A stretch of 23,698 nucleotides of DNA. Source: a virus. The notes beneath the pieces were generated by a model. That model made no database searches. It saw only the letters and a program-made list of their open reading frames with translations, and was not told the origin of the DNA. A program made the translations under genes and the position numbers. The stretch spans positions 1 through 23,698 of IMG/VR virus record IMGVR_UViG_3300042542_001328, one strand, 5' to 3'. Positions 1,046 to 23,187 of the stretch are shown one piece after another; position 1 is the stretch's first letter, and each line of letters opens with the position of its first letter.

Positions 1046-4000
1046 ATGGCAATTAGTAATCTATTAACGGGTAGGGTAAGGGTAGTAAGCCCGAAAAATG
1101 TAACGGCAGACAGATATCAATTTATTGATTTATCTCAAGTTGAACCAAATTTAGGGGTTCCTGATTTTTCTGCGTCATTATTAACAAATCCTGCGTTAGT
1201 AGTTTCTGATAGTGATGGTAATAGAGGATTTGCAAGAACAATTAGTTTAGACCAAATTTCAGGTTCTTTTTCTGGTTCATTTCAAGGAGATGGTTCTAAT
1301 TTAACAGGTGTAAAAGCTGATGTATCTCCACAAATATCAAGTGGTTCGGCAACAGCATCGATTTCTCCTGATAGAGGATTGCAAATAAATGTAGATACTA
1401 CCATTTTAGGTAATTTATATGTATCTCAGTCAATTATAGCTGACCAACTAATTGTAAATATAATTTCATCTTCTGTAATTTATTCATCTGGTTCAAATAT
1501 TTTTGGTGATGCAGAAAATGATAAGCAAGAGTTTACTGGTTCTGTACAAATACAATCGGAATTAATAGTTAATACTGTTACTGGTTCATCATTTAGTGGT
1601 TCTTTTACTGGTTCGTTTTTTGGAGACGGTAGAAATTTATTTAATTTACCAGAAGCAACAAAATTAGCTAGTGGTAGTGTAACCGCATCGGTATCACCAA
1701 ATACGGGATTTGTTGTAACATCAATAGCTAGTGGTTCTACTTTCACTGGTTCTCTTTTTGTAAGTGGAAACGTTGTAATACCATCTGGTAGTGGATTCTT
1801 TAGTGGTAGTGGTGCTGGGTTGTTTAACATCCCGTTATCGGCGCTTAATATTGAATCATTAGTATCAAATAGAATAGCTAGTGGTTCAGCAACAGCATCA
1901 ATTTCTCCAAATAGAGGATTGGTGGTAAATACAACCATTACCGCCTCAATGTATTCTGGTTCTGGTAAAGGATTATTTGATATTCCTATTTCTGCATTAT
2001 CACAAGAAGTATTTAGAATTGCAAGTGGTAGTGTTACAGCATCAGCATCTCCTAACTTTGGTTTTAGAGTACAATCATCTACAGTCGGTTCTCAAATAAC
2101 TGGTAGCTTGTTTGTTACTGGAAATATAGAATTAGGTGTGGGTGCGTATTATAGTGGTAGTGGTGAGAAATTATTTAACATACCTCGTTCAGCTTTAACT
2201 CCTGATGCGTTAGTAGCAACATTAATAGGAAGTGGTAGTGTAACAGCTTCAACTTCTCCTGATTTTGGATTTAGAGTAGAATCATTTCAAAGTGGTTCGC
2301 AATTTACTGGTTCTCTTTTTGTAAGTGGAGCTAGAGGTATTGAAATAGTATCCGGTTCATCTTTCTCTGGAAGTGGAGCTAGATTATTTGATATACCCGT
2401 TTCCGCTCTTAGAGATTTAGACCTTACAAGAATTAGAAGTGGTTCGGCAACAGCATCAATTTCTCCAAATAACGGATTGGAGGTAAATATATTTTCTTCA
2501 TTTACTGGAAGTATGATAGTATCCGCATCTGTAAAATACTTACCTTCCCAATCAATTCAAACTGTATTTAATGTAACTAATACTGGAGTTAATTTTTATA
2601 CTTTTAGTGGAGCAGCTGAAGGTAACAATCCTACTTTAACTTTAGTAAGAGGTATAACATATACATTTAATTTAAACGCATCGGGTCATCCATTTTATAT
2701 AAAAACAGCACCTGGTACTGGTACTGGAAATCAATATACAACAGGCGTAACTAATAATGGAGATGATGTAGGAGTTATAACATTCGCAGTTCCTGCAAAC
2801 GCACCATCGATGTTATATTATCAGTGCCAATTGCATTCAGCTATGGTTGGTACTATTAATATAGTTGATGCAATAGTTCAGAGAGATAGTGGTGTTCTTA
2901 TATATGGTGATGAAGTTATTAGTGGAAGTTTAAATGTAAAAGATGTTGTAAGAGCAAGAGAGTTTACAGGTTCAATAAGTTCATCGTTTATTCAAGGTGA
3001 TGGTAGTGGTTTATACAATATTCCTCGTTCAGCTTTCACCGGCGATTCGTTTAGAATAGCAAGTGGTAGTGTAACAGCTTCTGTATCTCCAATTGTTGGA
3101 TTTAAAGTAGAAACATCAGTAACTGGTTCTGAAATAGGTTCTCAGTTTACTGGTTCAGTTGCAGTAAGTGGTAGTGTAACCGCATCATTCTTTATTGGAG
3201 ATGGTAGTAGATTAATTAATATAACTGTTCCACCGCAAGTAGCAACTAGAATAACAACTGGGTCTATAACAGCATCTGTGGATATAAACAGAGGTTTTAG
3301 AGTTGAAGCTACTACTATTGGTTCTGAATTTACTGGAAGTATTAGAGTTTCTGGAAGCGTTGAAATTAGTTCTGGTTCATCTTTCTCTGGTAGTGGTGCT
3401 AGGTTATTTGATATTCCTAGAACTGCATTAACTCCGGATGCACTATTAACAACATTTATAGCATCTGGTTCTGTAACAGCATCGGTATCACCTAATGTTG
3501 GATTTGATGTAAAATCATCTTTATTAGGTTCTAGATTTAGTGGAAGTATATTTGCTAATAACGGAATCCGTTTAATGTCTGGCTCGTTTAGTGGTAGTGG
3601 TAGAGAATTATTTGATATACCTGTAGCAGCTCTTTCGGATTTAGATACATCAAAAATATTTAGTGGTTCGGCAACAGCATCAGTTTCTCCAAATAGGGGA
3701 TTTGAAGTATTTACAGCAACATCTAGATTCTATGGTTCAGTATCAGCTTCTGTATTTAGTGGTAGTGGTGCTGGATTAACAAATATACCATTCTCAGCAC
3801 TTTCGCAAGAATTATTTAGAATTGTAAGTGGTAGTGTAACGGCATCGGTATCACCTGAAGATGGATTTAAAGTAGTATCTACACTAAGTGGTTCTCAGTT
3901 TACTGGTTCGTTATTTGTAACTGGTGGATTTATTAGAGTTGCAACTGGTTCATTCTTTAGTGGTAGTGGTGCTGGATTATTAAACATCCCTCGTTCTGCC

Positions 4001-7000
4001 TTAAATGATGATGCACTTACAGCAACAGAAATCAAATCAGGTTCAGTAACCGCATCGGTATCTCCAAATTTTGGATTTAGAGTACAATCACAAATAAGTG
4101 GTTCTGAATTTACTGGTAGTGTTTCAATTAGTGGTAGTTTAGAAATAATAGCAACATCTGGCTCTTTAATATTAGCATCATCATCCGCATACTATGGAGA
4201 AGGTACTTATTTAAGAAACATACCTCGTTCAGCTTTAACACCGGATGCATTACTTTCTACGCTTATAGCTAGTGGTAGTGTAACCGCATCGGTAGCACCT
4301 AATACTGGATTTGTAGTAAATTCATATTCTACAATTAGTGGTAGCCTTATTGTATCATCATCAGCAAGAGCAATGCCTAATTCTGATATAGATACTGTAT
4401 TTATTGTAACAAATGAGGGTAGTGGTCTTTATAATATAAGTAATAAATTAGTAAGTGGTTCGAATCCAACATTAACTTTAGTTAGAAATGTAGAATATAC
4501 TTTTAATGTTAATGCTAGTGGACATCCGTTTTGGATTAAAGAAACACCTGGTACTGGTACTGGAAACTCATATGATTATTGGGTAACTAATAATGGTGAA
4601 GACACTGGTGTAATAACATTTTTAGTTTCAGGAAGTGCACCTGATACATTATATTACAACTGTCAATTACATTTATCAATGGCAGGTACAATCGATGTAG
4701 TAGATGCATTGTATGTACCAGCTGAAATAACATTAATTGGTGATACAAAAGTAGTTGGAGTAGTAACAGCATCTGTATTTAGCGGTAGTGGTAAAGGTTT
4801 ATTTGATATACCTCGTTCAGCATTATCGGAAGAAGTATTCCGTATTGCAAGTGGTAGTGTAAGTGCATCTGTATCTCCTGATTTTGGATTTAGAGTAGAA
4901 TCATTTGAGAGTGGTTCTGATTTTAGTGGAAGTATTAGAATTGATTCATCTTCATTCTTATATGCCGTAGGTACTTACTTAAGACAAATTCCTAGAGCAG
5001 CATTAACCGAAGATGCATTAATATCAGCTGAAATTAAATCTGGTTCAGTAACAGCATCAGTTTCTCCTGATTATGGATTTAGAGTTATTACTCCATTTAC
5101 ATCTTCAATTGATGAGAACGGATATTTTACTACACAAATTGGTTCTCAATTTACTGGTTCTATTGATGTTAGTGGAAGTTTATTTATAAATGACGTAAGT
5201 GGGGGTGTGTATATTGCATCATCTTCATTCTTATATTCAGATGGTACTTATTTAAGAAATATACCTCGTTCAGCATTAACCGAAGATGCATTAGTTTCAA
5301 CCGAAATTAAATCTGGTTCAGTAACAGCATCTGTTTCTCCTGATTATGGATTTAGAGTAATAACTGATAAAACAGGTTCACAAGTAGCAGCTCAAATTAC
5401 TGGCTCGGTTGATATTAGTGGTTCATTAACTGTTAAAGATTTTATATTTGGTGATGGTAGATTTATTACAAATGTACAAGCCGCAGCGGCTCCATTTATT
5501 GGTAGTGGTTCTGCAACGGCATCGGTAGCAGATGGTGAACGATTTGTAGTAACAACTGCAAAGACTGGTTCTGAAATAGGTTCTGAATTTACTGGTTCTG
5601 TTGAAATTAGTGGTTCATTAATTGTATCTAACTTTTTAATTGGTGACGGTACTTTTATTACAAATGTAGTAGCTGCAGCATCTCCTAAAATTGCTAGTGG
5701 AAGTGTAACCGCATCCGTATCTCCTAATTTTGGATTTAAAGTAGAAACACAAGCAACTGGTTCTGGGATTGGTTCTCAATTTACTGGTTCTATTTCAGTT
5801 AGTGGAAGTATTCAAGCATTTACATATTTTGGAGATGGTTCTAATTTAACAAATGTAGCTGCAGCAGCTGCACCAAGAATAGCATCTGGTTCTGTAACTG
5901 CATCGGTAGCACCTAACACTGGATTATTAGTAAACTCATATGTAAACATAAGTCAAACTGTTCCATCATCATCTGCTGGTTTAATTGTAAGTGGAGCAGT
6001 TTACATAAGTGGTTCAATAACAGCTTCTCGTTATGATGGAGATGGTGGGGGATTATTTAATATCCCAGCATCAGCACTTAAAGATTTACAATTAGATAAA
6101 ATACAATCTGGTTCTGCTAGAGCAATAATAGACCCAACAAAATTAGATGTAAACGTACCAATTACGGCAGCACTTTATATAGGTGATGGTGGTGGTTTGT
6201 TTAACATTCCTGCAAATGCATTGGAAGATTTGCAATTAGATAGAATTAAATCTGGTTCTGTTGAAGCTGTGATTTCTCCTAATTTGGGTTTAGTAGTAAA
6301 TACAAAAGCAAGTATATCACAATCATTAGCGGTTAGTGGCGGATTATTTGTAACTGGTGGTAATATTATATTGAACGGAAGTGGTTCTACCTTCGTTGGT
6401 GATGGTAGTGGATTATATAATATTACAATTGCTAATTTAGCATTTGAAACATCTATAATGAAATCGGGCTCATTTACGGCATCAATTTCACCTGATAAAG
6501 GATTTGTTGTAAATACATCCGCATCTATTTGGGGAAATCTTTATGTTGGTGATAATTTAAGAGCAACAACTATAACTGGTAGTACTCAAATATATTCTCC
6601 AATAGTAAGTGGTGGTTTATTGGGTACATACACATATCAAGGAAATGGACCAACTGCATCTGCGGAATATGATATTTTGAGATTTGATGAAAATAGAGGA
6701 CATTATATTCCTCAACCTGAAACTTCATTAACTGAAACTGTATCGTTTAATAATGTAAGTAGTTTAACTATTGTACATAATTTAGGGATTAGATATCCAA
6801 TGGTACAGGTTTACGCCACTGGTTCGGAAGACCAAATTTTACCAGGTACAATAAAATCAATTGATGATGATACTATTCAAATTGTATTTAGTGGATTGAC
6901 AAGTGGGCATGTGGTAATTGGTAGTGGTGGTTCTTTGATTAGTGGTACAATAGAAGGTGGTAGAGTTATTGGTACGGTATTATCAGCATCATTTGCACAG

Positions 7001-10000
7001 GTTGCTGGAACTGCTAATAGTCTTGTTGGATTTGATTCTGCATCATTATCCGCATTAGGTGATTTACAAAACTTTGTAAGAAATTCACAAACATCATCAA
7101 TGGCGGTGTTTAGTGCAGTAAGTTCTTCTTACGCATTAACCGCATCATACGCATTAAACGCAGGTGTAGGTAGTGGTACTGAATTATTTATATATCAAAC
7201 AAGTTCATTAGTAAAAGCACAAGTAGGAAAAATTCATTTTACTGGTTCTGGTGTTGATGTAATATCATCTGGTTCGGATGGTGTATTGGTAACGATATTA
7301 GGTGGTGGTGGTGGAGTAACATCATTAACCGCATCGTATGTTGCATCATCTGATGTTGATGGGCCTTTGGGAATGGATAGTATAACCTTTGCAAGAACTG
7401 CATCTTATGCATTATTTGCATTAAATACTCCATCATCTGATACATCATCATTCTTACAAATTAACACAGACCAAACAATAAACGCATCACTTACAATTAG
7501 TGGTAGCTTGGGTGTTACTGGTAGTAGTTTTTTAACTGGACCGGTTATAGCAAATAGTTCTATACAATTAAATAACTTACCAACAGGTTCATCGGAAGAA
7601 GTTGTAATTTGGAATAGTGTAACAAAACGATTAGAAAGAAGAAATATAGCAGCAGCAGTTGGTTCTTCTGGTACAGGTGGTAGTAGTGGTACTACTGGTT
7701 CATCTGGTTCATCTGGAAGTAGTGGAACTTCTGGAACATCTGGTTCATCTGGTTCATCTGGAAGTAGCGGAACATCTGGTACTTCTGGTTTAGATGGTAC
7801 ATCAGGAACTTCTGGTTCATCTGGTACATCTGGAAGTAGCGGAACATCTGGTACATCCGGTTCATCTGGAACTTCTGGCACATCTGGAAGTAGTGGTACA
7901 TCGGGAACATCTGGTTCATCTGGTACGTCTGGAACATCTGGTTCTTCTGGTACATCTGGAAGTTCTGGTTCATCTGGAACGTCTGGTACAAGTGGTAGTA
8001 GTGGAACTTCGGGAACATCTGGAACATCTGGGTCAACTGGTTCATCTGGAACATCTGGGTCATCTGGTACATCGGGTTCTTCTGGAACATCTGGTACATC
8101 CGGTTCTTCTGGTACATCAGGTACATCAGGATCATCTGGTTCATCGGGAACATCTGGTACATCTGGAACTTCTGGTTCAGCTGGTTCGTCTGGTACATCT
8201 GGAACTTCTGGTTCTACGGGTTCATCTGGTAGTAGCGGTTCGTCTGGAACTTCTGGTACATCTGGAACGTCTGGTTCATCCGGCTCTGCTGGTAGTGGTG
8301 GTTCTGCTGGTTCTTCTGGTTCAAGTGGTTCTGGTGGTACTACTGGTACAGGTGGTAGTGGTGGTTCATCTGGTACATCGGGAACTTCTGGAACATCTGG
8401 AACTTCTGGTACTAGTGGTACAAGCGGTAGTAGTGGTACATCTGGTTCGGATGGACAATCTGGTACATCTGGTACATCTGGTACGTCTGGAGAAGATGGC
8501 ACATCTGGTAGTAGTGGAACTTCAGGAACTTCTGGTTCAACTGGTTCAGCTGGTTCTTCTGGTACGTCTGGTATAGATGGAACTTCTGGTACATCGGGAA
8601 CTTCTGGTTCAGCTGGTTCATCTGGAACTTCTGGTACATCTGGTTCTACTGGTTCATCTGGAACTTCTGGCACATCCGGAACTTCTGGTTCGGCTGGTTC
8701 ATCTGGTTCATCTGGAACTTCAGGAACATCTGGTACTGATGGTTCTGCTGGTACAACGGGTTCATCTGGAACTTCGGGAACATCTGGCACAAGCGGAAGT
8801 GGTGGTACATCGGGAACTTCTGGAAGTAGTGGTACTTCGGGAACATCTGGTACTGATGGTTCTGCTGGTACAACGGGTTCTTCTGGAACATCTGGAACTT
8901 CTGGTACATCGGGAACTTCTGGAACTAATGGAACTTCTGGTTCAGCAGGTTCTTCTGGAACATCTGGTACTGATGGTTCTGCTGGTACAACGGGTTCATT
9001 TGGAACTTCTGGTTCTTCTGGAACTTCCGGAACTAATGGTTCATCGGGAACATCTGGTACGGACGGAACATCTGGAACGAGTGGAACATCTGGAACTGAT
9101 GGCTCGGCAGGTACATCTGGTTCATCGGGAACTTCTGGAACATCTGGAACTAATGGTACATCTGGAACATCTGGCTCAGCAGGTTCTGCGGGTTCGTCTG
9201 GTTCAGCAGGTTCGTCTGGTTCTACTGGTTCATCTGGAACTTCTGGTACAAGCGGTACATCTGGTTTAGATGGTACATACTTCGGTTCATCCGGAACATC
9301 GGGAACATCTGGTACAAGCGGTACATCTGGAACAAGCGGTACATCTGGTACATCTGGTACATCTGGTGTTGATGGCACATTTAATGGTAGTAGTGGAACG
9401 TCTGGAACATCAGGAACATCGGGTACATCGGGAACTTCTGGTTCTAATGGTACGGCTGGTTCATCTGGAACATCTGGAACATCTGGACAAGATGGTACAT
9501 TATTTGGTAGTAGTGGAACAAGTGGTATATCTGGTACGTCTGGAACTTCAGGTACTTCGGGAACTTCTGGAAGTAGTGGAACGTCTGGCACATCTGGTGT
9601 TGATGGTACATTTAATGGAAGTAGTGGAACGTCTGGAACATCAGGAACATCTGGCTCAGCTGGTTCGGCTGGAACTTCTGGCACATCGGGTTCATCTGGA
9701 ACATCTGGAACATCTGGACAAGATGGAACTTTATTTGGTAGTAGTGGTACAAGCGGACAAAGTGGAACATCTGGTTCAGCTGGTTCATCGGGAACGTCTG
9801 GAGCGTCTGGTACTAACGGCTCTGCTGGAACGTCTGGAACATCTGGTTTAGACGGAACTTTATTTGGTAGTAGTGGTACATCTGGAACATCTGGGACATC
9901 GGGAACTTCTGGTTCAAGTGGTACATCAGGAACATCTGGTACATCTGGACAGGATGGTACATTATTTGGAAGTAGTGGTACAAGCGGAGAAAGTGGTTCA

Positions 10001-11309: not shown

Positions 11310-12209
11310 ATGGGAATATTTAGAAGATTAGTAGAAACGGACACAGCACAAGTATATCCATTTGTATTTAAGATAACAACATCATCGGCTAGTACACAAT
11401 TTACTGTGCCATTAGCTAATTATTTAGGTTTAACTCCATCTGTAACAATAGATTGGGGAGATAGCACATCATCGCCATTAATAACATCAACTACATCTCC
11501 GGATAGAATTCATACATACGCATCAGCTGGTACTTATGTAATAACTATTAGTGGATTTATGCCAGGTTTTGTAGTAAACAACAATGCATCAATTAGAAGT
11601 TTAATTACTGAATTAGTACAATGGGGAATCGTTGGATTACGAACAGTTAATTTTTATGGATGTAATAATTTAACAGCTATTCCTGGTAGCGCTTCGTTAA
11701 GTGCGGTTGGTGGATATACTGGATTGGATGAAGTACTTAGTTTTGTATATTTTATGAGAGGTACTGGGATAACAGCTATTCCAGCTGACCTTTTTGATTA
11801 TTCTCCAAACGCAACAATATTTACGGATGCATTTTCAAGTACACCAATTACAACAGTACCATCTGGTTTATTTGATGAAGTTATAAATGCAACTACGTTT
11901 GCATCTTGTTTTTTCAACTGTACATCTTTAAGTTCTGTACCATCCACATTATTTGATAATTGTCCAAACGTAACATCCTTTTCATCAACGTTTAGAAATT
12001 GTAGAGCATTAGGTAATGTTTTACAATTTACAAATAATTTAAGTGTATCTACATTTAATAATGTTTATAATATGAGTTCTACTACAAACGCATTAGCTGG
12101 AACTGCTCCTGAATTGTGGAATAGAACTCCAACACCATCTGGAACTGATGCATTTAATAATTGTACCGGTTTATCAAATTTCGCATCAATACCTCTAAAT
12201 TTTAAATAA
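11310..12209 (+). CDS. PKD-like plus BspA/DUF285-type leucine-rich adhesin
   Basis: Product of 299 aa. Residues about 20-83 look like a PKD-type beta-sandwich, with IDWGDST near 47-53 and HTYASAGTYVITISG at 68-82. Residues about 95-299 hold tandem repeats of roughly 25 residues, such as IPADLFDYSPNATIF, VPSGLFDEVINATTF and VPSTLFDNCPNVTSF. Each pairs a xxPxxLFD step with an xxFxxxFxxC step, as in the DUF285/BspA-like leucine-rich surface proteins of bacteria and mycoplasmas. There is no signal peptide, consistent with virion assembly in the cytoplasm. The ATG lies 4 nt after the giant fibre stop and has no clear Shine-Dalgarno, which suggests translational coupling. A likely role is a receptor-binding tip or accessory adhesin attached to the preceding fibre. 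The domain calls are motif-based and the receptor role is inferred from position. Confidence 0.82.
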   Translation: MGIFRRLVETDTAQVYPFVFKITTSSASTQFTVPLANYLGLTPSVTIDWGDSTSSPLITSTTSPDRIHTYASAGTYVITISGFMPGFVVNNNASIRSLITELVQWGIVGLRTVNFYGCNNLTAIPGSASLSAVGGYTGLDEVLSFVYFMRGTGITAIPADLFDYSPNATIFTDAFSSTPITTVPSGLFDEVINATTFASCFFNCTSLSSVPSTLFDNCPNVTSFSSTFRNCRALGNVLQFTNNLSVSTFNNVYNMSSTTNALAGTAPELWNRTPTPSGTDAFNNCTGLSNFASIPLNFK

Positions 12210-12210
12210 T

Positions 12211-12654
12211 ATGTATTTACGAATTATAGATGAAACAATAAATTATCCATATAGTATTTCTCAATTAAGAGAAGGATATCCTAATGTAAGTTTACCAGCG
12301 GAATTAACGGATATATCATTGGTAGAATGGGATATGTACGTTGTTACTCCAACGCCAAAACCAATTGATTACACAAAAAATATTTCAGAAGGAACTCCTA
12401 ATTTAATTGATGGTATATATTATCAAAATTGGATTCAAACCAACGCATCTCAAAGTGAAATTGATTATAGATTGGAAAATCAATGGGTAGAAGTCAGAGA
12501 AATACGAAATCAATTATTAACAGAGTGTGATTGGACTCAATTAGCTGATATTCCAACCGAAACAAAAGAATTGTGGACATCATATAGAACACAATTAAGA
12601 GATATTACATCCCAACCCAATCCTTTTTCTATTAATTGGCCTGTGAAACCTTAA
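12211..12654 (+). CDS. Phage tail (fibre) assembly chaperone-like protein
   Basis: Product of 147 aa. The C-terminal 50 residues (VREIRNQLLTECDWTQLADIP, then LWTSYRTQLRDITSQPNPFSINWPVKP read in two pieces) match the pattern of the phage tail assembly chaperone family (Phage_tail_APC). In that family a helix RNxLLxxxDWTQ is followed by WxxYRxxLRDI and a terminal WPxKP. The N-terminal part (YLRIIDETINYPYSISQLRE) resembles the N-terminus of many small proteins encoded next to phage fibres. The ATG is 1 nt after the stop of the leucine-rich gene, so the three genes 1046-12654 probably form one unit. It may help fold or trimerise the fibre or adhesin encoded just upstream. It could instead be a minor virion part. 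Confidence 0.8.
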   Translation: MYLRIIDETINYPYSISQLREGYPNVSLPAELTDISLVEWDMYVVTPTPKPIDYTKNISEGTPNLIDGIYYQNWIQTNASQSEIDYRLENQWVEVREIRNQLLTECDWTQLADIPTETKELWTSYRTQLRDITSQPNPFSINWPVKP

Positions 12655-13338: not shown

Positions 13339-16300
13339 ATGCAGAATTTAGGTAATAATCCTAATGGTTTAAATCAACTAAGCGCAAGTTTAGTTTCTTT
13401 GTTTGTAAGTGGAAGTAGAATAGCTAACTTTTCATCTGCATCTGGAATTCAGATTGATAAGGTTGGTACATTTTCCAATACAACACTTGAAATAACGGCT
13501 AATACAAAAATTAGTGGTTCTATTACCGCATCATTGTTTAATGGTGATGGTAGTGGATTGTTTAATATTAATGCCGCAGCAATTGGTGATTTAGATAGGA
13601 TAAAGTCAGGTTCAGCAACAGCAATAATTTCTCCAAATAAAGGTTTAGTAGTAAATACCGATTTAACAGTAGCAGGTACAATAAATGCAACCGAATTAAA
13701 AGTAACTTATATATCATCATCAATAATCTACGCAAGTGGTTCATCTAAATTTGGTGATGCACAAAATGATAAGCAAGAATTTACTGGTAGTGTAAATATA
13801 ACTGGTTCATTATTTTTTGGAACAGGTTCTTTAAGGCAAGATATAACAACTGAAGAAGTTTTAGTTTATAATGTAACAACTGGTAGGATTGGCATTAAAA
13901 CTTCAGCAGCATCATCTGGAACATCTGGAACTTCTGGAACTTCTGGAACTTCTGGTACATCTGGCACTTCAGGAACTTCTGGCACTTCAGGAACTTCTGG
14001 CACTTCAGGAACTTCTGGAAGTAGTGGTACGAGTGGTTCTTCTGGTACAAGCGGTACATCAGGAACTTCTGGCACATCTGGAACTTCAGGAACTTCTGGA
14101 ACATCTGGCACATCTGGTACAAGCGGTACATCAGGAACATCTGGAACTAGAGGTACATCAGGAACTTCTGGCACATCGGGAACTTCTGGAACATCTGGCA
14201 CATCGGGAACATCTGGTGTGAGTGGTTCATCTGGAACATCTGGGTCATCTGGAACTTCTGGTACATCTGGAACTTCTGGAAGTAGTGGTACATCGGGAAC
14301 ATCTGGAACATCTGGATTAACAGGTACAAGTGGTACATCCGGATTGACAGGGACATCTGGAACATCGGGATTAAGTGGAACGAATGGTACATCGGGAACT
14401 TCTGGAATAAGTGGAACGGCAGGTACATCAGGTACATCAGGAACATCTGGTACATCTGGTACAAGTGGTGTAACCGGTGCGGGTGGTGCAGGAGGTACAT
14501 CTGGAACTTCTGGTTCTTCTGGAACATCTGGGTCTTCAGGAACATCTGGTACATCAGGCACATCAGGAACATCTGGAACATCGGGAATTAGTGGAGCTGG
14601 TGGTGTGAGTGGTACGGCTGGAACTTCTGGTACAAGCGGTACATCTGGCACATCGGGTACATCTGGGACATCTGGAACGCGTGGTACATCGGGAACTTCT
14701 GGAACATCTGGAGTAAGTGGTACGGGTGGTTCTTCTGGGACTTCAGGTACATCTGGAACATCTGGAATCAATGGAAGTAGTGGAACAAGTGGTACATCTG
14801 GCACATCTGGAACATCGGGTACATCTGGAACATCTGGCACAAGTGGTACATCTGGTATAGGTAGTAGTGGTACATCGGGTACATCTGGAACATCAGGAAC
14901 AAGAGGTACATCCGGAACGTCAGGTACATCGGGAATAAATGGTAGTAGCGGTACATCTGGCACATCTGGAATAAATGGTAGTAGCGGTACATCTGGCACA
15001 AGTGGAACATCTGGCACAAGTGGCACATCTGGAATTAGTGGAAGTTCGGGAACATCTGGCACATCAGGTACATCGGGAACTTCTGGTACTTCTGGAACAT
15101 CGGGAACATCTGGGATATCAGGAACATCTGGAACTTCTGGAACATCAGGTACATCCGGTACACGTGGAACTTCTGGAACATCGGGAACTTCTGGTACAAG
15201 TGGAACATCAGGCACATCGGGAAGCAGTGGAACTTCAGGAACTTCTGGTACATCCGGAACATCTGGTACATCTGGGGTTAATGGTAGTGATGGAACATCT
15301 GGCACATCAGGAACTTCTGGAACATCTGGCACATCGGGAACATCTGGAACTAGAGGTACATCCGGAACTTCTGGCACATCGGGAACTTCTGGAACATCTG
15401 GCACATCCGGAACAAGAGGTACATCTGGGACATCAGGAACATCAGGTACATCTGGAACATCAGGAACTTCTGGAACATCTGGTTCATCAGGAACTTCTGG
15501 ATTATTATCATTAACTGGTACAACTGATAATGGTGTAATCACATTAAACGGAACTGCACCAAATGCAACCGTTGAAGCAAATTTAAGATTCGATGGTACT
15601 ACATTGGCAGTAACTGGTAACGCTACAATTAGTGGTGACCTTACTGTAAGTGGTACAACAACATATATTAATACAACAACTTTAAATGTAGGTGATAATA
15701 TCATCACATTAAATGCAGATATTGGAGCATCAACCGCACCAACTGAAAATGCTGGTATAGAAGTTAAGAGAGGTAATGCAGCAACAAAAGCATTTTATTG
15801 GGAAGAAGCAAATGATAGATGGTATGCTGAAGATGGATTGTATGTAGCTGGTAACGTAGTTCTTAGTGGAACTGTTGATACGGGACAAGGTGCAACTGAA
15901 GTTTACTTAATGAATCAGAATGTTCGTACAACCGATTCGGTAACATTTGCAAACGTAACTTCAAACTTAACTGGTACTGCTGATAGAGCAGAAGCTGTTG
16001 ATTCAAATGATACTAGAAATGTAAACGATACTCCTTCAAGTAAAAATGCTGGAGTTTATTTTGATTTTAAAACAAATAGTGTAAACGGATTAAGTGATGG
16101 TGGTACATATAACGGACAAATGTTTTGGCGAAGTTATGGTAGTAGTACTGATTTAAGTGGAGGATATCCAATACAAATAGCATATACTGCAAATGGTAGA
16201 ATATGGAGTAGATTGGGAACATCATCATCAGCATGGGCTTCTTGGCAACAAATATTAAATAGTGTTGACCAAATTTACGCTTATAATATGAATCAGTATG

Positions 16301-19300
16301 TAAGAACTACTGATGCACCTACATTTGCTGGATTAAATTCAACTGATACTATAACGGTTAAGAGTAATGGTACTCCATCTGGTGTAAGAGCATTTAACGC
16401 AGATTCTGTTCTTAGACTTCAAAATACAAATAGTAATAACTATTTAGAATTTAGAAATCAAGCTGATACTGGAACTTATGGTGGTATTTTATTTACTGAT
16501 AATAATGTTGGAGGTTATATCGCATTTAGAACATATGTAGGTAGTGGAGCTAACAATGGAACAAACGGAGATTATATGATATATGGTACTTACACAGACC
16601 ATATATTCCAAGCCGGCAGTTCTGAAACAGTAAATGGAAAGAGTGAAATATTTAGAATGTATGCTAATGGTGATGTAAGAGCACAAGGTGGTATGTATGC
16701 AACTATATATTACGATTCCGCTGATACTACATATAGATTTAACGGAGATGGTTCATCTGTTTTAAATGAATTAACTACATTTGGTTCTACAACTATTAGA
16801 AACAATTATAATACAGGTCAAAATTTAAAACTCAATCTAAACGATTCTGGTGCATATGGTTTAGTTGATTTCCAAGAGAATGGTTCACATAAAGGATTTT
16901 TTGGATTGGGTGGAACTACACAATCATTTGGTACATATGCAGCATATACCGCTGATGGATTTAGCTGGAATCATGATGGTACTGGTAAAATAATTATTGC
17001 CAATAGAGGTACATCAAAACGAATTGATTTAAACACTGGTGCGGAGGGTAGTACCAATTTTACAACAATAAGAATGACGAATCAGAATGTGTATATAACA
17101 CCTGATTCAAATACTGGTACTTTAGATGCACCTATATTTAGAGAATTAACAAGTACTGGATATTATTTAGACCCATCAAGTACTGGTACTTCATTAAATA
17201 CGGCGGGTTCTATACGAGGTTCGTATTATGTAGCAAGTAATTATACCAGCACCGGATACACTCAATATAAAGGCTATGACAATAATAACCATTTTATAAT
17301 GATTAGAGGTAGGGTAACTGGCAACACAACATCTCCTACTTATACTGGTTATCATAGAACATCATTAGTAGAATACGCTGAAGGAAATGATGATACTGGA
17401 TGGTTTTTTCAAACTGCGGCTACTGGTAATTATGATATTGTAGCTAGAATAACACGTTCATATTCTCAATTTGAATCAAGCCTTAGAGCACCTATATTTT
17501 ATGATTCCGATAATACTGGTTTTAGAATAGACCCTACGGATTATTCATATGTAAGATATTTTAAAGTTAGAAGTAGTGGAAGTTCTTCTGGAACTAGAGC
17601 ATTGACGGTACATGATGAATCTCAAGGTGAAATAAACTTTGGTACTTATCCTGGTGCTTGGACTTCCGCAGTTCAAATCCAATCTAATAACAACGCCACT
17701 TACATGTGGATGTCACCATTGACTGGATATAATGGTAGATTTTATATGGCTGGTGCTGGATTGGACATATATACTGAAGGCAACGGATTGTCTGGACAAT
17801 TTTACAATGGACAATTTAGAACTGGATTTATTTACGATTTCAATGATACGGGTACATACTTAGACCCTAATGGATTTAGTAATTTATATAATAGTGGTTT
17901 AGTTGCAACATTTACAAAATTAAGTACATCTCCAAATAGTAGAGCAGTTCAATTTGCAAATAATCAGGGTGATAACTCTTGGGGTATTGTTGGTGAATTT
18001 AGAGTTAATGGTTCTCCTGGTACGGATAGACCATCAATCTTATTCTCTAATGGATTTGATAGTAATACTTGGTCTTGTGGATTTGGTTACGCAGATTCTT
18101 CTTATTTTAGAATTAATCACGACCACGGCCATAGAAATGGTTCTTGGGGTACTACGGATTTCTATGTTGATAGAGGTGGTAACTCATATTCAAATGGTAG
18201 TTCTAGAGCACCAATATTTTATGACCAAAATGATACTGGTAGATATATGGACCCAACCGGTCAATCGTATATTGTTAATTTATGCGTTGGTACAAATAAC
18301 TATAATCACGGATATCCTGGCGTACTTCAAATTGGTAGTACATCATACAACTATAACTTTAATAATGGTAGTTGGGCGGGTAGTATTACAACTGGTATAT
18401 TAGCAAACTGTGCAGATGAATGGGAGTTTTCAATACATGATAGTGGAACTTCGGTTGAATCTGTATTCATATACTCTGGTGGAAGAATATTAATGGGCAG
18501 AAGTATTGGTTGGGGTACAACTTATATAGAAGCAGCTGAATCGTTCAGAGCACCTATATTCTACGATTCCAACGATACCGGATATTACACAAACCCCAAT
18601 GGATATTCACAAATGTCAGCTGTATGGGCAAACAACTGGTTTAGACCTCAAGGATGTTGTGGATTGTATTTTGAATCATATGGACAGGGTATTTGGAGTG
18701 TATTTTGTGAGGGTAGTCCTTATGGTCACACATCAACTTATGGTGGTGGTAGAAATGGATGGTATGGATACGCTATTAGTAGTAGATACTGTTTTATGAG
18801 TACAACGGGTGATAACTGTGGTGTACATGATACTGCTAGAGGTTGGATTTGGTATATGAGTGGAGCCGAACTAAACCTTTATTGGGCTGGAAACCGTAGA
18901 ATTGTAACTACTAGTTGGGGTTCTTATTACGATGGATATACGGAAGTAGGTGGTTCTTCAAGAGCCCCAATATTCTACGATTCAAACGATACGGGATATT
19001 ATTTAGACCAAAATACAACTTCAAATGATGCATTAAGAATTAGAGGTGGTGCGTTACATGGACCTAACCCATCTTGGGGAGCATATTTTAGAAGTGGATG
19101 TAATGGTAGAGTAGATGGTTGGGCATCCGTTGAAACAACCAATGGTAACCTACATATGGATTGTAGAGATGGATATGAAACTTATATCAATCACTATAAT
19201 GGTAATAGAACTTATTTGTATGAAATAAGAACAAACTTTATTTATGATAGAGATAATACTGGATATTATTCTGACCCGAATGGTACATCTCGTATAAACT

Positions 19301-19746
19301 ATGCTATACATGATAACGTTTATTCATATAGCTGGATTTTCTCTCAAAATAACATCATCGCTTATTACTCAGATGAAAGATTGAAAACTAATTTAGGACC
19401 AATTGAAAATCCATTAGATAAAGTGAATCAACTTAATGGATTCTACTATATTGAAAATGATTTAGCACGTTCATTTGGATATACGGATGAGAAAGTTCAA
19501 GTGGGTTTATCAGCTCAGCAAGTTCAAGCAGTATTACCGCAAGTTGTAACTCTAGCTCCGTTTGATATGGATATAGATAACGAAACTAAAGAGATTAAAG
19601 GTTCTAAAACTGGTGAAAACTATTTGACTGTTGATTACGAAAAGATAGTACCTCTATTAGTAGAAGCTATAAAAGAACTTAGTGAGGACTTAAATAAAAC
19701 AAAAGCTGAAGTTAAGGAATTACGAAAATTGATAGAAGAAAAATAA
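13339..19746 (+). CDS. Second giant tail fibre with GTS array and C-terminal S74 chaperone
   Basis: Product of 2135 aa. Residues 1-192 carry fibre modules, including one SGSATAIISPNKGLVVN copy and a FGDAQNDKQEFTGS segment nearly identical to one in the first giant fibre. Residues 193-721 are Gly-Thr-Ser triplets. A TDNG junction domain follows (about 724-840), then about 880-975 resembles a phage pyocin-knob domain (GYPIQIAYTANGRIWSR...WASWQQIL). From about 1125 to 1985 there are seven or eight copies of a module with (R)APIFYDSNDTGYYLDPNGTS. The C-terminus is a peptidase S74/endosialidase-type chaperone beginning YYSDERLKTNLG, with VGLSAQQVQAVLPQVV, LTVDYEKIVPLLVEAIKEL and a final coiled coil. 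Known relatives cleave just before the Ser of SDERLK, here Ser2011, with Lys2016 as probable partner. That would release about 125 residues after trimerisation. It is probably a host-recognising long fibre. Confidence 0.92.
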   Translation: MQNLGNNPNGLNQLSASLVSLFVSGSRIANFSSASGIQIDKVGTFSNTTLEITANTKISGSITASLFNGDGSGLFNINAAAIGDLDRIKSGSATAIISPNKGLVVNTDLTVAGTINATELKVTYISSSIIYASGSSKFGDAQNDKQEFTGSVNITGSLFFGTGSLRQDITTEEVLVYNVTTGRIGIKTSAASSGTSGTSGTSGTSGTSGTSGTSGTSGTSGTSGTSGSSGTSGSSGTSGTSGTSGTSGTSGTSGTSGTSGTSGTSGTSGTRGTSGTSGTSGTSGTSGTSGTSGVSGSSGTSGSSGTSGTSGTSGSSGTSGTSGTSGLTGTSGTSGLTGTSGTSGLSGTNGTSGTSGISGTAGTSGTSGTSGTSGTSGVTGAGGAGGTSGTSGSSGTSGSSGTSGTSGTSGTSGTSGISGAGGVSGTAGTSGTSGTSGTSGTSGTSGTRGTSGTSGTSGVSGTGGSSGTSGTSGTSGINGSSGTSGTSGTSGTSGTSGTSGTSGTSGIGSSGTSGTSGTSGTRGTSGTSGTSGINGSSGTSGTSGINGSSGTSGTSGTSGTSGTSGISGSSGTSGTSGTSGTSGTSGTSGTSGISGTSGTSGTSGTSGTRGTSGTSGTSGTSGTSGTSGSSGTSGTSGTSGTSGTSGVNGSDGTSGTSGTSGTSGTSGTSGTRGTSGTSGTSGTSGTSGTSGTRGTSGTSGTSGTSGTSGTSGTSGSSGTSGLLSLTGTTDNGVITLNGTAPNATVEANLRFDGTTLAVTGNATISGDLTVSGTTTYINTTTLNVGDNIITLNADIGASTAPTENAGIEVKRGNAATKAFYWEEANDRWYAEDGLYVAGNVVLSGTVDTGQGATEVYLMNQNVRTTDSVTFANVTSNLTGTADRAEAVDSNDTRNVNDTPSSKNAGVYFDFKTNSVNGLSDGGTYNGQMFWRSYGSSTDLSGGYPIQIAYTANGRIWSRLGTSSSAWASWQQILNSVDQIYAYNMNQYVRTTDAPTFAGLNSTDTITVKSNGTPSGVRAFNADSVLRLQNTNSNNYLEFRNQADTGTYGGILFTDNNVGGYIAFRTYVGSGANNGTNGDYMIYGTYTDHIFQAGSSETVNGKSEIFRMYANGDVRAQGGMYATIYYDSADTTYRFNGDGSSVLNELTTFGSTTIRNNYNTGQNLKLNLNDSGAYGLVDFQENGSHKGFFGLGGTTQSFGTYAAYTADGFSWNHDGTGKIIIANRGTSKRIDLNTGAEGSTNFTTIRMTNQNVYITPDSNTGTLDAPIFRELTSTGYYLDPSSTGTSLNTAGSIRGSYYVASNYTSTGYTQYKGYDNNNHFIMIRGRVTGNTTSPTYTGYHRTSLVEYAEGNDDTGWFFQTAATGNYDIVARITRSYSQFESSLRAPIFYDSDNTGFRIDPTDYSYVRYFKVRSSGSSSGTRALTVHDESQGEINFGTYPGAWTSAVQIQSNNNATYMWMSPLTGYNGRFYMAGAGLDIYTEGNGLSGQFYNGQFRTGFIYDFNDTGTYLDPNGFSNLYNSGLVATFTKLSTSPNSRAVQFANNQGDNSWGIVGEFRVNGSPGTDRPSILFSNGFDSNTWSCGFGYADSSYFRINHDHGHRNGSWGTTDFYVDRGGNSYSNGSSRAPIFYDQNDTGRYMDPTGQSYIVNLCVGTNNYNHGYPGVLQIGSTSYNYNFNNGSWAGSITTGILANCADEWEFSIHDSGTSVESVFIYSGGRILMGRSIGWGTTYIEAAESFRAPIFYDSNDTGYYTNPNGYSQMSAVWANNWFRPQGCCGLYFESYGQGIWSVFCEGSPYGHTSTYGGGRNGWYGYAISSRYCFMSTTGDNCGVHDTARGWIWYMSGAELNLYWAGNRRIVTTSWGSYYDGYTEVGGSSRAPIFYDSNDTGYYLDQNTTSNDALRIRGGALHGPNPSWGAYFRSGCNGRVDGWASVETTNGNLHMDCRDGYETYINHYNGNRTYLYEIRTNFIYDRDNTGYYSDPNGTSRINYAIHDNVYSYSWIFSQNNIIAYYSDERLKTNLGPIENPLDKVNQLNGFYYIENDLARSFGYTDEKVQVGLSAQQVQAVLPQVVTLAPFDMDIDNETKEIKGSKTGENYLTVDYEKIVPLLVEAIKELSEDLNKTKAEVKELRKLIEEK
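13915..15501 (+). repeat. Gly-Thr-Ser array, second giant fibre
   Basis: This encodes residues 193-721, about 176 triplets. GTS dominates, and scattered variants include GSS, GIS, GVS, GLT, GIN and GTR. The phase is almost unbroken; one GI-GSS step near nt 14857 is a single short interruption. It lacks the GTxFG interruptions and the prolines of the array at 7661-10801. Codons are mixed, as in that array. Confidence 0.95.
16711..19290 (+). repeat. APIFYD/NDTGYY fibre modules
   Basis: A motif of the form (R)(A/T)xF(I)YDxxDTGxYxDPxG recurs in the second giant fibre. Clear copies start near nt 17128 (diverged), 17488, 17821, 18208, 18550, 18964 and 19231, with a weaker one near 16711. Spacing is about 89-138 residues, with variable beta-rich sequence between copies. 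This module type is familiar from fibre tips of aquatic T4-like phages. The variable intervening segments may be the exposed, receptor-facing part, which is inferred. Confidence 0.8.
19369..19743 (+). other. S74 intramolecular chaperone domain (self-cleaving)
   Basis: Residues 2011-2135 of the second giant fibre. SDERLK starts at Ser2011, the expected nucleophile and cleavage point, with Lys2016 five residues later. The domain has the usual length, about 125 residues, and ends in a charged heptad-like helix (about residues 2108-2135) suited to trimer formation. In the family it guides folding and is then removed from the mature fibre. Confidence 0.88.
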
Positions 19747-19786: not shown

Positions 19787-20182
19787 ATGGGATATACATA
19801 CGAATGGTCTTTAGTAGGACTTAGAAAACAAAATACAGATACTCTAAGCGATGTTGTAGTTGGTACAAACTGGAAAGTAGTTGCAACCGATGCTAATGGT
19901 AATGTAGGAACTTTTGTTGGAGCAACTCCATTTACACCACAAGACCTTAATGGTGATGGGTTTGTAGATTATAGAGATTTAACCGAAGAATTAGTATTAA
20001 ATTGGGTTAAAAATGTAGTAAGTGGTTCTGGACCTCAAGCATATTGGGACCATATTAACAGTCAAATCACAAAAGAAATAGATGTTAAGAAATATAACAG
20101 AGTAACTGTTAGTGATGTTGATTTACCTTGGGCGGCTACATCTGGTAGTAATTTATACGGAGTAGACCCTCAACCGGCGTAA
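19787..20182 (+). CDS. Small conserved phage protein with EF-hand/dockerin-like calcium loop
   Basis: Product of 131 aa. The overall pattern (YEWSLVGLRKQNTDTLSDVVV at the start, then GNVGTFVGATPF, DLTEELVLNWV, and a late VSDVDLPW) matches a small protein family frequent in T4-like cyanophages and other aquatic myoviruses, where its function is unassigned. Within it, residues 53-64 read DLNGDGFVDYRD. That is a full 12-residue EF-hand or dockerin loop with Asp/Asn at positions 1, 3, 5, 9 and 12, Gly at 6 and a hydrophobic residue at 8. A single such loop suggests calcium-stabilised folding or assembly, which is inferred. It sits alone between the second giant fibre and the sheath gene, with its own promoter-like element. 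It is probably a structural or fibre-related protein. Confidence 0.78.
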   Translation: MGYTYEWSLVGLRKQNTDTLSDVVVGTNWKVVATDANGNVGTFVGATPFTPQDLNGDGFVDYRDLTEELVLNWVKNVVSGSGPQAYWDHINSQITKEIDVKKYNRVTVSDVDLPWAATSGSNLYGVDPQPA

Positions 20183-20324: not shown

Positions 20325-22646
20325 ATGGCAGAAAGAATCGTATCACCTGGCGTATTCACAAGAGAAAATGACCTTTCCTTCCTAGCGCAAGGAATTGGTG
20401 AAATTGGGGCAGCATTTATAGGACCTTTTAAACAAGGACCTGCATTCATCCCAACTATTGTGAGAACTCAATCAGAATTCGAAGAAATATTCGGAACACC
20501 TGATGGAACTTATTATACTGAATATGCAGTACAAAACTATTTAAGAGAAGCTGGTACAGCAACAATCGTAAGGGTTGGTGGTATCGGTGGTTATGAGCAG
20601 ATAGCACCTTTAGCAATATTTGCATCTGGTTCATCCCTTCAATCAGTAGGCACTAAATTAATTGGTGTATTACATTCAACTAAATTAGGTGATGAGAAAG
20701 TTGGATTTGCAGGAGCAACTGTAGCAAGTGATAGTGTTAATGATGGTTCATTCTTAGCATTGCATGCAGATTTAAATGTATCAGCATCTATCTTACCATC
20801 TTCTGTAAACGATTTATCAGATGTATTTGGTGAATCTCCATTTGGAGCTAAAAAAGCATACGCATATTCTTACTTTGAAAGTGCAGCTGGATACTATACT
20901 GGTTCTGCTGGAAACAACATTGTAATAACTTCTGTTGTATTACCTCCACAGGACTTTACTTACGATGCACAAGCAGCTGAAACTCCAATGGTTAAATCTC
21001 AATTGATTAGTGGTGAAAGATATGATTTATTTAAGTTCGTAACAACTGGACATGGTACAACATATAATACTAAATTTAAAGTTGGTATTTCAAATGTAAA
21101 GGCAGCTGGTGAAGATGGTGGAACTGATTACTCAACATTTACTGTAACGATTCGTTCATTTGATGATACTGATAAGAGAAAGAGTGTTGTAGAAACATTT
21201 AATAATGTAAACTTAGACCCTGCTTCTCCAAACTATATAGCTAGAAGAATTGGTGATAGATATTTTACAATTGATAACAATGGTAAACTTACTGAATTTG
21301 GTGATTATACAAATCAATCAAAATATGTCAGAGTAGTAGTATCTACTCCTGGCTCATTCCCAATATCAGCAGCACCATTCGGACATGGAGCATATACAAA
21401 CCCAATTACAGCAACAAATAACGCTGAATCACTTTTAGTACCAGCGGTAGTATATCAAACAAACTCAGCAAATAATACATCATCATCTCCAATCTATTAT
21501 AGTGGATTTGATTTTGAAACTACTGGTGTTAAGTTAGATAACTTACAATATTTGAAACCACTTCCAATAGGAGCTCAAACTGGTTCTAACGTATCTTTTG
21601 CATTTGATGCAAATGGTTTAACGTATCAAATGACCGGTTCTGCATCTACTGATATGGTTAAGAGACAATTCGTATTAGCATTCCAAGATGGATTTGATGG
21701 TATGAACCCAACTACAACAATAGCTAAAGCTGGTGATACTGATTGGAGTAATGCAAATACGCAAGGATTCAATTGTGCAACATCTGTATCTTCTGGTTCA
21801 GTAGCATACAATAAAGCACTTAACGCAATTTCAAATCCTGATGAGTATGATATCAATATGTTAGTAACTCCTGGTATTGTAAGAGGATTACACCCAGCAA
21901 TTACTACTAAAGCAATTGATATTTGTGAGGAAAGACAAGACGCATTTTATATCGCTGATTTCAACGATTTTGATGATACAATAACTGAGGCAACTGAAGC
22001 AGCTAACGCAGTTGATACAAACTACGCAGCAACTTACTACCCTTGGGTTAAGACAATAGATACTAATACAAACAAATTAGTAACTGTACCACCTTCAGTA
22101 CTATTACCAGCAGTATTTGCTAGTAACGATAGATTAGCAGCAGAATGGTTCGCACCTGCTGGTTTGAATAGAGGTGGTATTACTGGAGCAGTTTCAGTAT
22201 TGAATAGATTAACACATGCGGAGAGAGATACTCTATATGAGAACAAAGTAAACCCAATCGCAGCATTCCCTGGACAAGGTATTGTAGCATTTGGACAGAA
22301 GACATTGCAAGATAAAGCATCAGCATTAGATAGAATCAACGTAAGAAGATTACTTATCACTGTTAAGAAGTTTATCGCATCTACTTCTCGTTTCTTAGTG
22401 TTCGAACAAAATACTACTCAAACTAGAGCAAGATTCATTAACACAGCAACTCCATACTTAGAGAGCATACAACAAAGACAAGGTTTGTACGCATTCAAAG
22501 TTGTAATGGATGAAAGTAACAACACACCTGATGTTATTGATAGAAACATATTAGCTGGACAAATTTTCTTACAACCTGCTAAGACGGCTGAATTCATCGT
22601 AATTGATTTCAACATCTTACCAACTGGAGCAAGTTTCTCAGCATAA
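20325..22646 (+). CDS. Contractile tail sheath protein (T4 gp18-like)
   Basis: Product of 773 aa; T4 gp18 has 659. The N-terminus, IVSPGVFTREND followed by IGEIGAAFIGPFKQGPAF and EFEEIFGTPDG, is the typical start of T4-type sheath subunits. The C-terminal third (about 505-773) is the conserved sheath core: MLVTPGIVRGLHP, WFAPAGLNRGGI, NPIAAFPGQGIVAFGQKTL, NVRRLLITVKKFI, and a final QIFLQPAKTAEFIVIDFNI. The middle (about 110-480) is the variable, surface-exposed part and explains the extra length. The subunit polymerises around the tail tube and contracts during injection. The ATG at 20325 has a good GGAG ribosome site 7 nt upstream, one of the few here, consistent with high expression. The long leader holds a promoter-like element and inverted repeats. 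The tube gene follows after 52 nt. Confidence 0.96.
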   Translation: MAERIVSPGVFTRENDLSFLAQGIGEIGAAFIGPFKQGPAFIPTIVRTQSEFEEIFGTPDGTYYTEYAVQNYLREAGTATIVRVGGIGGYEQIAPLAIFASGSSLQSVGTKLIGVLHSTKLGDEKVGFAGATVASDSVNDGSFLALHADLNVSASILPSSVNDLSDVFGESPFGAKKAYAYSYFESAAGYYTGSAGNNIVITSVVLPPQDFTYDAQAAETPMVKSQLISGERYDLFKFVTTGHGTTYNTKFKVGISNVKAAGEDGGTDYSTFTVTIRSFDDTDKRKSVVETFNNVNLDPASPNYIARRIGDRYFTIDNNGKLTEFGDYTNQSKYVRVVVSTPGSFPISAAPFGHGAYTNPITATNNAESLLVPAVVYQTNSANNTSSSPIYYSGFDFETTGVKLDNLQYLKPLPIGAQTGSNVSFAFDANGLTYQMTGSASTDMVKRQFVLAFQDGFDGMNPTTTIAKAGDTDWSNANTQGFNCATSVSSGSVAYNKALNAISNPDEYDINMLVTPGIVRGLHPAITTKAIDICEERQDAFYIADFNDFDDTITEATEAANAVDTNYAATYYPWVKTIDTNTNKLVTVPPSVLLPAVFASNDRLAAEWFAPAGLNRGGITGAVSVLNRLTHAERDTLYENKVNPIAAFPGQGIVAFGQKTLQDKASALDRINVRRLLITVKKFIASTSRFLVFEQNTTQTRARFINTATPYLESIQQRQGLYAFKVVMDESNNTPDVIDRNILAGQIFLQPAKTAEFIVIDFNILPTGASFSA

Positions 22647-22698: not shown

Positions 22699-23187
22699 AT
22701 GGCACAAGTATTAGAATTCAACGATATGTTCTACAAAACCTGGGAACCAAAAACGAAAGCTCGTTTCAAAATGAGTATCGATGGTGTAGAAGCATATTTG
22801 ATTAAAGCAGCTAGCAGACCTCAAATTAACTTTGAAGTTGTAACTTTAGACCACATTAACGTGAAAAGAAAGTTGCAAGGTAAAGGTGAATGGCAGGATA
22901 TGACTATCACTCTTTATGACCCAATTGTACCATCTGGTGCACAACAAGTAATGGAGTGGGTTCGTTTAGGACACGAATCTATTACTGGTAGAAAAGGATA
23001 TTCTGAATTCTATAAGAAGACTATCAAAATCGAAATGTTAGGACCTGTTGGTGATATTGTTGAAACTTGGACTTTATATGGAGCATTTCCATTGCAAGTA
23101 AACTTTGGTGAATTAGATATGACATCTAATGACCCAGCATCAATAGAACTACAAGTAGCATATGATTACGCTGTATTAGAATTCTAA
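22699..23187 (+). CDS. Tail tube protein (T4 gp19-like)
   Basis: Product of 162 aa, essentially the length of T4 gp19 (163). The sequence has the family features: an N-terminal FNDMFYKTWEPKTKARFKMSIDG, then RPQINFEVVTLDHINVKRKLQGKGEWQDMTITLYDP read across residues about 40-75, and a C-terminal beta segment ELDMTSNDPASIELQVAYDYAVLEF. It forms the inner tube inside the sheath through which DNA passes. The ATG is preceded by an AAAAGGAAAAG purine run that can serve as ribosome site. It lies directly after the sheath gene, as in T4, and is followed by a strong terminator. The identification is secure. Confidence 0.96.
   Translation: MAQVLEFNDMFYKTWEPKTKARFKMSIDGVEAYLIKAASRPQINFEVVTLDHINVKRKLQGKGEWQDMTITLYDPIVPSGAQQVMEWVRLGHESITGRKGYSEFYKKTIKIEMLGPVGDIVETWTLYGAFPLQVNFGELDMTSNDPASIELQVAYDYAVLEF

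Follow-up and report, generated by a model that had tools for sequence, protein, structure and literature searches.

Two predicted cupredoxin domains in a giant tail-fiber protein

We analyzed a 23,698-nucleotide stretch of viral DNA (IMG/VR virus record IMGVR_UViG_3300042542_001328, positions 1 to 23,698), hereafter called the window. A giant tail-fiber open reading frame (ORF) in this window encodes a protein of 3419 amino acids (aa) that contains two related domains of about 103 aa each (Table 1). A first-pass annotation, made from the letters alone, had pointed to two segments 611 residues apart that share SGHPF(Y/W)I and YY(Q/N)CQLHxxM(V/A)G, and had read one His together with a Cys-x2-His-x2-Met loop as a type-1 copper site kept in both copies amid differing neighbors. 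Indeed, the domains start at residues 506 and 1117, and the candidate ligands (His548, Cys594, His597, and Met600 in domain 1; His1160, Cys1206, His1209, and Met1212 in domain 2) sit within these motifs in both copies. Equivalent ligands are 612 residues apart, since copy 2 has one extra residue. The annotation was also right that the protein holds no further cysteine: its composition includes exactly 2 Cys, both inside the motifs, together with 8 His and 17 Met. A chance motif was considered and rejected, as 20,000 shuffles of the fiber gave C..H..M once in 1 and twice in 0.

The two copies are 62% identical. Their alignment comprises 41 identical codons, 25 with synonymous differences, and 37 with amino acid replacements; thus, the ligands were kept in a diverged pair. 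In a phylogeny of the domain copies, copy 1 pairs with the first copy from a different phage, and copy 2 belongs to a clade of 14 rows together with second copies from other phages; the duplication therefore predates these phages.

AlphaFold2 models of both domains, built with 36 sequences, gave high predicted local distance difference test (pLDDT) scores (Table 1), and both are beta domains. In cupredoxins, one His of the type-1 site lies just before a strand, the Cys ends the penultimate strand, and the second His and the Met lie in the next loop. In the domain 1 model, the first His (model residue 50) directly precedes strand 52-55, strand 91-96 terminates in Cys96, and the loop ahead of strand 103-109 contains His99 and Met102; the ligand positions relative to the strands in both models are those of type-1 ligands in cupredoxins. 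For domain 1, 50 of the 50 Foldseek matches listed were copper proteins or their variants, with rusticyanin as the best (E value of 2.6e-5) and nitrite reductase, plastocyanin, amicyanin, and apoplastocyanin 2pcy among them. Copper proteins accounted for 47 of the 50 matches listed for domain 2, the other three being the aspartic peptidase SO1698. The domain 2 matches include azurin variants with the loop rebuilt as CAAHAAM or CTPHPFM, which share the ligand spacing of the phage domains. VIA-align superimposed the models on the N-terminal cupredoxin of nitrite reductase 2dv6 (Z of 10.4 with a root mean square deviation of 2.8 over 96 residues for domain 1; Z of 11.1 with 2.3 over 93 residues for domain 2) and on rusticyanin 2cal (Z of 10.1 and 10.2, respectively). 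Together, the models bear out the earlier proposal that both segments adopt the cupredoxin fold (a Greek key of about eight strands), with one predicted ligand His upstream and the remaining three predicted ligands (Cys, His, and Met) on the loop that joins the last two strands.

Table 1. Coordinates of the predicted copper-site features and of the tail genes in the window
Feature	Position	Strand	Basis or remarks
Cupredoxin domain 1, aa 506-608 (predicted)	2561..2869	+	phrog_677 positions 301-411 of 412, E 1.1e-31; model pLDDT 94.6
His548 codon, predicted type-1 Cu ligand	2687..2689	+	Sequence; the family's His falls on the amicyanin ligand His (2gb2 alignment)
Cys594-x2-His597-x2-Met600, predicted type-1 Cu ligand loop	2825..2845	+	Sequence, conservation, alignment
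Cupredoxin domain 2, aa 1117-1220 (predicted)	4394..4705	+	phrog_677 positions 306-411 of 412, E 4.6e-22; model pLDDT 94.0
His1160 codon, predicted type-1 Cu ligand	4523..4525	+	Sequence, conservation
Cys1206-x2-His1209-x2-Met1212, predicted type-1 Cu ligand loop	4661..4681	+	Sequence, conservation
Giant tail-fiber ORF, 3419 aa	1046..11305	+	Both domains, SGS/GDG repeats, long collagen-like (GTS)n region
Tail-fiber assembly chaperone (Phage_tail_APC)	12211..12654	+	Pfam PF16778, E 9.4e-15; phrog_4912
Tail sheath	20325..22646	+	PF04984/PF17482; phrog_23, E 6.2e-70
T4 gp19-like tail tube	22699..23187	+	PF06841, E 3.1e-12

A relationship to copper proteins was also detected between sequence profiles. 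Profile A3, which combines 32 phage and cell sequences, retrieved copper nitrite reductase (whole-chain E values of 2e-6 for 9cck and 1.4e-5) and amicyanin 2gb2 (3.7e-4) from the PDB, with best single stretches at 0.004 for 9cck and 0.0013 for 2gb2. Pseudoazurin, plastocyanin, azurin, and rusticyanin were found as well, and among 60 of the 70 matches, four were L31 ribosomal proteins and all others were copper proteins. Comparison with Prochlorococcus plastocyanin by hhalign was weak for profile A1 (probability 4.7) and reached 81.9 for A3, over only 28 C-terminal columns that take in Cys/His/Met and leave out the first His. Two cell relatives, L208 (26.1 bits) and L183 (22.1 bits), exceed the cut-off of Pfam Copper-bind (PF00127; 21.2 bits), which neither window domain reaches. 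The A3 matches argue for a sequence kinship with type-1 copper proteins above chance. Predicted fold and ligands make the domain a cupredoxin; by score, it is no member of Pfam Copper-bind.

The phage domain resembles amicyanin in its Cys-x2-His-x2-Met spacing, its single upstream His, and its length. Cys, His, and Met are aligned in three of the three amicyanin rows shown, and in that of the variant 2gb2 (P52G), the His, Cys, His, and Met of the family fall on all four ligands. The residues that follow the first ligand differ (His-Pro-Phe in the phage domain and His-Asn in amicyanin), as does the setting, since amicyanin is a free electron carrier whereas the phage domain is embedded in a fiber. 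The closest solved folds, rusticyanin and the N-terminal cupredoxin of the Hyphomicrobium nitrite reductase 2dv6, belong to respiratory redox proteins with ∼20% identity to the phage domain.

Occurrence of the domain in phages and cells

Domain 1 matched 357 of 50,697 phage records at an E value of 1e-3, a number that includes multiple isolates of many phages. Counted by first word of the name, these are Synechococcus (270), Cyanophage (51), Prochlorococcus (25), and others (11). The Autographiviridae Prochlorococcus phages P-SCSP2 and P-GSP1 are among the records with the domain. A scan of IMG/VR gave at least 583 confirmed stretches. Records that match the tail sheath of the window include 634 named Escherichia and 328 named Klebsiella, names that are absent from the domain tally (the two sets were compared by name).

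We picked 22 phage records with the domain for variety. In 12 of them the domain ends the open frame, and 8 of these 12 proteins are annotated as baseplate wedge tail fiber connectors; the other 4 carry the annotations minor tail protein, subtilisin-like protease, and baseplate wedge subunits. The best copy retains all four ligands in 21 of the 22 records, with the ligand loop lengthened to C-x4-H-x2-M in S-SKS1. The exception is S-CAM1, whose copy is cut before the Cys: at positions 2938-3198 of that locus, the domain's N-terminal part continues into unrelated sequence that has no Cys loop, and a separate C-x2-H-x2-M segment lies just ahead of this truncated domain. The cyanophage family called "baseplate wedge tail fiber protein connector" (gp9 type, phrog_677) ends in the same domain, which makes up its C-terminal ∼110 residues and keeps the ligands, and both window domains match phrog_677 over this region (only the domain segments of the fiber were scanned). 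The connector has one terminal copy in a 412-position model, whereas the window fiber has two internal copies in 3419 aa. No copper-binding annotation is attached to the connector records examined.

Among cellular genomes (one per species, 84,980 species), we found 70 loci, by title mostly from Bacteroidota and alphaproteobacteria; the scan pattern required the ligand loop, so these loci are silent on ligand conservation in cells. Examples are flavobacterial CHRD-domain proteins (L144 and L158) and ∼430-aa alphaproteobacterial proteins. The proteins at L143, L144, and L157 and both copies at L169 are 49 to 64% identical to window domain 1 and have the ligands. Several cell proteins with the domain have a signal or lipoprotein N terminus, as predicted by a crude hydrophobicity test, unlike the phage fiber. 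L169, from a Trueperaceae bin, contains two adjacent small open frames at positions 5294-6345, each with an export-type N terminus and the domain. The At5g54830-like domain PF25489 was weakly matched by 16 of the 36 family members (best E value of 4e-6), and window domain 1 scores 16.2 bits against its cut-off of 27. The idea that the domain is private to this phage was rejected, as it recurs in phage records, in IMG/VR, and in cell genomes. In the BFVD, the pithovirus/marseillevirus "beta-sandwich proteins" A0A481Z6J5, A0A481Z7Q7, and A0A481YVH3 matched the domain 1 model (E values of 6e-9 to 3e-7), and from this structural match the domain may also be present in giant viruses.

Evolution of the ligand set and the possible role of copper

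In order to evaluate ligand conservation, we searched IMG/VR with the 41 residues ahead of the first ligand, a query blind to the ligands, and retained the best 80 of 97 confirmed stretches (78 loci), many of whose contigs also appear in scans with ligand-containing patterns. Those other scans, in which 1 of 6 patterns (one scan) or all patterns (two scans) included ligand residues, were not used for conservation. Copies shorter than 80 aa or containing X were dropped from the ligand counts, and one ORF with only a cut copy was dropped from the ORF count. H/C/H/M is intact in 57 of the 64 unique copies with 80 aa or more. Of the others, one (L289) has its Met one place on (C-x2-H-x3-M, which reads HCHA by column and was counted apart), and six lack the Cys, their ligand columns reading QSGM, HDLL, QSQM, HSDM, HDHM, and YSSL. 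After clustering at 80% identity, the full set is present in 39 of 45 clusters and the Cys is absent from 6 of 45. The second His is lost in 5 of the 6 Cys-less clusters, the first His in 3, and the Met in 2, versus 0 of 39 for each in the remainder. Among other conserved columns, the next best co-loss with Cys had a P value of 0.04; these P values treat clusters as independent and are too small because the six losses cluster on a poorly resolved tree (3 to 4 changes). On that tree, the site losses need 4 changes, at least 3 by well-supported branches. The scaffold of the Cys-less copies stays and is no more decayed than that of the others, with departures at the other conserved columns of 0 to 0.19 in the six clusters and a mean of 0.07 (maximum, 0.45) in the rest.

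These counts uphold the first-pass suggestion that selection keeps a predicted metal site, and homologues of the domain do not freely lose the His, Cys, and Met. The ligands appear to evolve as one unit, kept together and mostly lost together, a pattern that would mark a working metal site. At least one intact site is present in 40 of 40 unique fiber ORFs with a full-length copy, including six that also have a lost site. Cysteine is otherwise sparse in such proteins: 74 unique fiber ORFs or pieces of at least 400 aa (94,915 aa) hold 97 motif Cys, a count raised by the ligand-containing search patterns, and 54 Cys elsewhere, a count unaffected by them; 57 of the 74 have none elsewhere.

The predicted type-1 site quite probably binds copper. 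On balance, we lean toward the interpretation that both domains are cupredoxins carrying all four type-1 ligands in the short, amicyanin-like arrangement and that they load copper as a stabilizing cofactor in a binding or joining module. Free copper is scarce in the cytoplasm and available outside, where cupredoxins bind copper very tightly. The domains would be globular modules set in an otherwise fibrous, cysteine-poor fiber, which would fold metal-free in the host cytoplasm with the thiol reduced. One copper ion per domain might then be taken up, either as the host lyses or in the water, and its binding would lock the ligand loop and stiffen the beta-sandwich. The module would mainly hold or bind, as a fiber joint or a contact with the host surface, with copper stabilizing it rather than carrying electrons; such a module suits both an internal position in a fiber and a terminal one in baseplate-connector proteins. 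The scaffold would dispense with copper in copies that lost their site, and each fiber observed with such a copy keeps the site in another.

Several results weigh against this interpretation. Searched alone, the window domains matched no Pfam copper family (PF00127 was unlisted at E values up to 1) and no meaningful PDB chain (best E value of 0.52); single-sequence searches of Pfam, NCBIfam, and the PDB gave nothing usable, and a phage-only profile fell short of significance against the PDB (best, 0.49). The 1sfd and 3ply alignments agree at Cys/His/Met and place the first His two columns off. Many cell members must also lie below the Copper-bind cut-off, since three flavobacterial genomes that carry the domain contain no Copper-bind match. 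Many other VIA-align rows were two-domain laccases matched over laccase domain 1, which we take not to be the type-1 copper domain, so these rows speak for the fold only. By cluster, the Met is conserved in 96%, the first His in 93%, the second His in 89%, and the Cys in 87%, and the last two are less kept than the best scaffold residues (up to 100%). Because six of the 64 unique copies live without the site, the fold has a copper-free use. The intact second copy in fibers with a lost site is weak evidence and not significant alone, because 57 of 69 full copies lie in multicopy ORFs and all six losses would fall there about one third of the time by chance. Finally, the choice of a structural role for copper over a redox or receptor-binding one is a judgement.

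The retention of all four ligands including the axial Met, as in electron-transfer cupredoxins, and the location of the domain on fiber and baseplate-connector proteins would also suit a copper-dependent function at the host surface, either redox chemistry or recognition of a host copper-uptake or electron-transfer protein. For iron, an analogous role has been proposed as the Ferrojan Horse hypothesis, in which iron ions in phage tail fibers act as bait for uptake systems (PMC10892097, citing Bonnain 2016). However, in the authors' own test, TonB- and FeoB-deficient iron-uptake mutants showed similar infection. In the window, no redox partner or enzyme domain was noticed beside the cupredoxin domains, and nothing in our analysis ties the domain to a receptor; we consider a host-surface copper function unlikely.

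The six copies that lost the site and kept the scaffold could instead indicate an immunoglobulin-like adhesion or spacer module only, with ligands that are inherited and either metal-free in the virion or holding another metal such as zinc. Cupredoxins can fold metal-free, as apoplastocyanin 2pcy illustrates, and the host cytoplasm offers almost no free copper. However, a vestigial site is expected to decay piecemeal, whereas all 39 clusters with the Cys also have the other three ligands, loss of the Cys tends to be accompanied by loss of the others, and the scaffold is no more decayed than in the remaining copies. Moreover, the loop-length variants of S-SKS1 and L289 keep their ligands, and we regard the spacer-only explanation as rather improbable. 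It is very improbable that the domains are not cupredoxins and that the motif is coincidental on another beta-sandwich. The Foldseek template modeling scores of only ∼0.4 to 0.6 by query length, the aspartic peptidase in the domain 2 matches, and the failure of single-sequence searches would fit such a coincidence, but copper proteins make up all or nearly all of the Foldseek matches listed, the top Z scores reach 10 to 11, and the profile finds cupredoxins by sequence also.

Known cupredoxins serve as electron carriers or as domains of enzymes. What appears to be new, from the models and sequences, is the place of a cupredoxin in a virion attachment protein and its spread. In the open-licence literature available to us, where absence is weak evidence, we found no report of cupredoxin domains in phage fibers or baseplates. 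A predicted cupredoxin fold with an intact ligand set is a recurrent part of the virion attachment proteins of aquatic phages, and it offers a functional lead for the C-terminal domain of gp9-type connectors. More speculatively, and with some doubt, aquatic phages, mostly cyanobacterial, might carry copper on fibers and connectors as a working cofactor that sets adsorption or fiber deployment, the copper coming from the lysing host or the water, as a counterpart of the iron-in-tail-fiber hypothesis. If copper is bound, phages would form a reservoir of copper, and the metal could influence adsorption in lakes and seas.

Genome context of the fiber

The chaperone, sheath, and tube genes all lie downstream of the giant fiber ORF in this 23.7-kb virus record, and the window is part of a contractile-tailed phage. 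The nearest relative of the window sheath is that of Microcystis phage Mel-JY01 (48.5% identity over 99%), a phage absent from the tally of records matching domain 1. The fiber type is unplaced because the first 300 aa had no match in the phage collection. The window contains two copies of the cupredoxin domain only, both in this first fiber; none was found in a second giant fiber at 13339-19746 (+), which has (GTS)n repeats and whose end resembles, on visual inspection, a peptidase-S74-type chaperone.

Also in the tail region, the ORF at 11310-12209 (+) shows a weak PKD match (E value of 0.01) and, by eye, leucine-rich surface-type repeats, and it is possibly a second adhesin. Two antisense ORFs, at 7405-9684 (-) (759 aa) and 13866-15707 (-) (613 aa), lie opposite (GTS)n repeats, and these frames most likely arise artefactually from the codon phase of the repeats. 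The ORF at 19787-20182 (+) encodes a DUF7936 protein (E value of 8.6e-14) with a single EF-hand/dockerin-like calcium loop, DLNGDGFVDYRD, that is subthreshold in Pfam.

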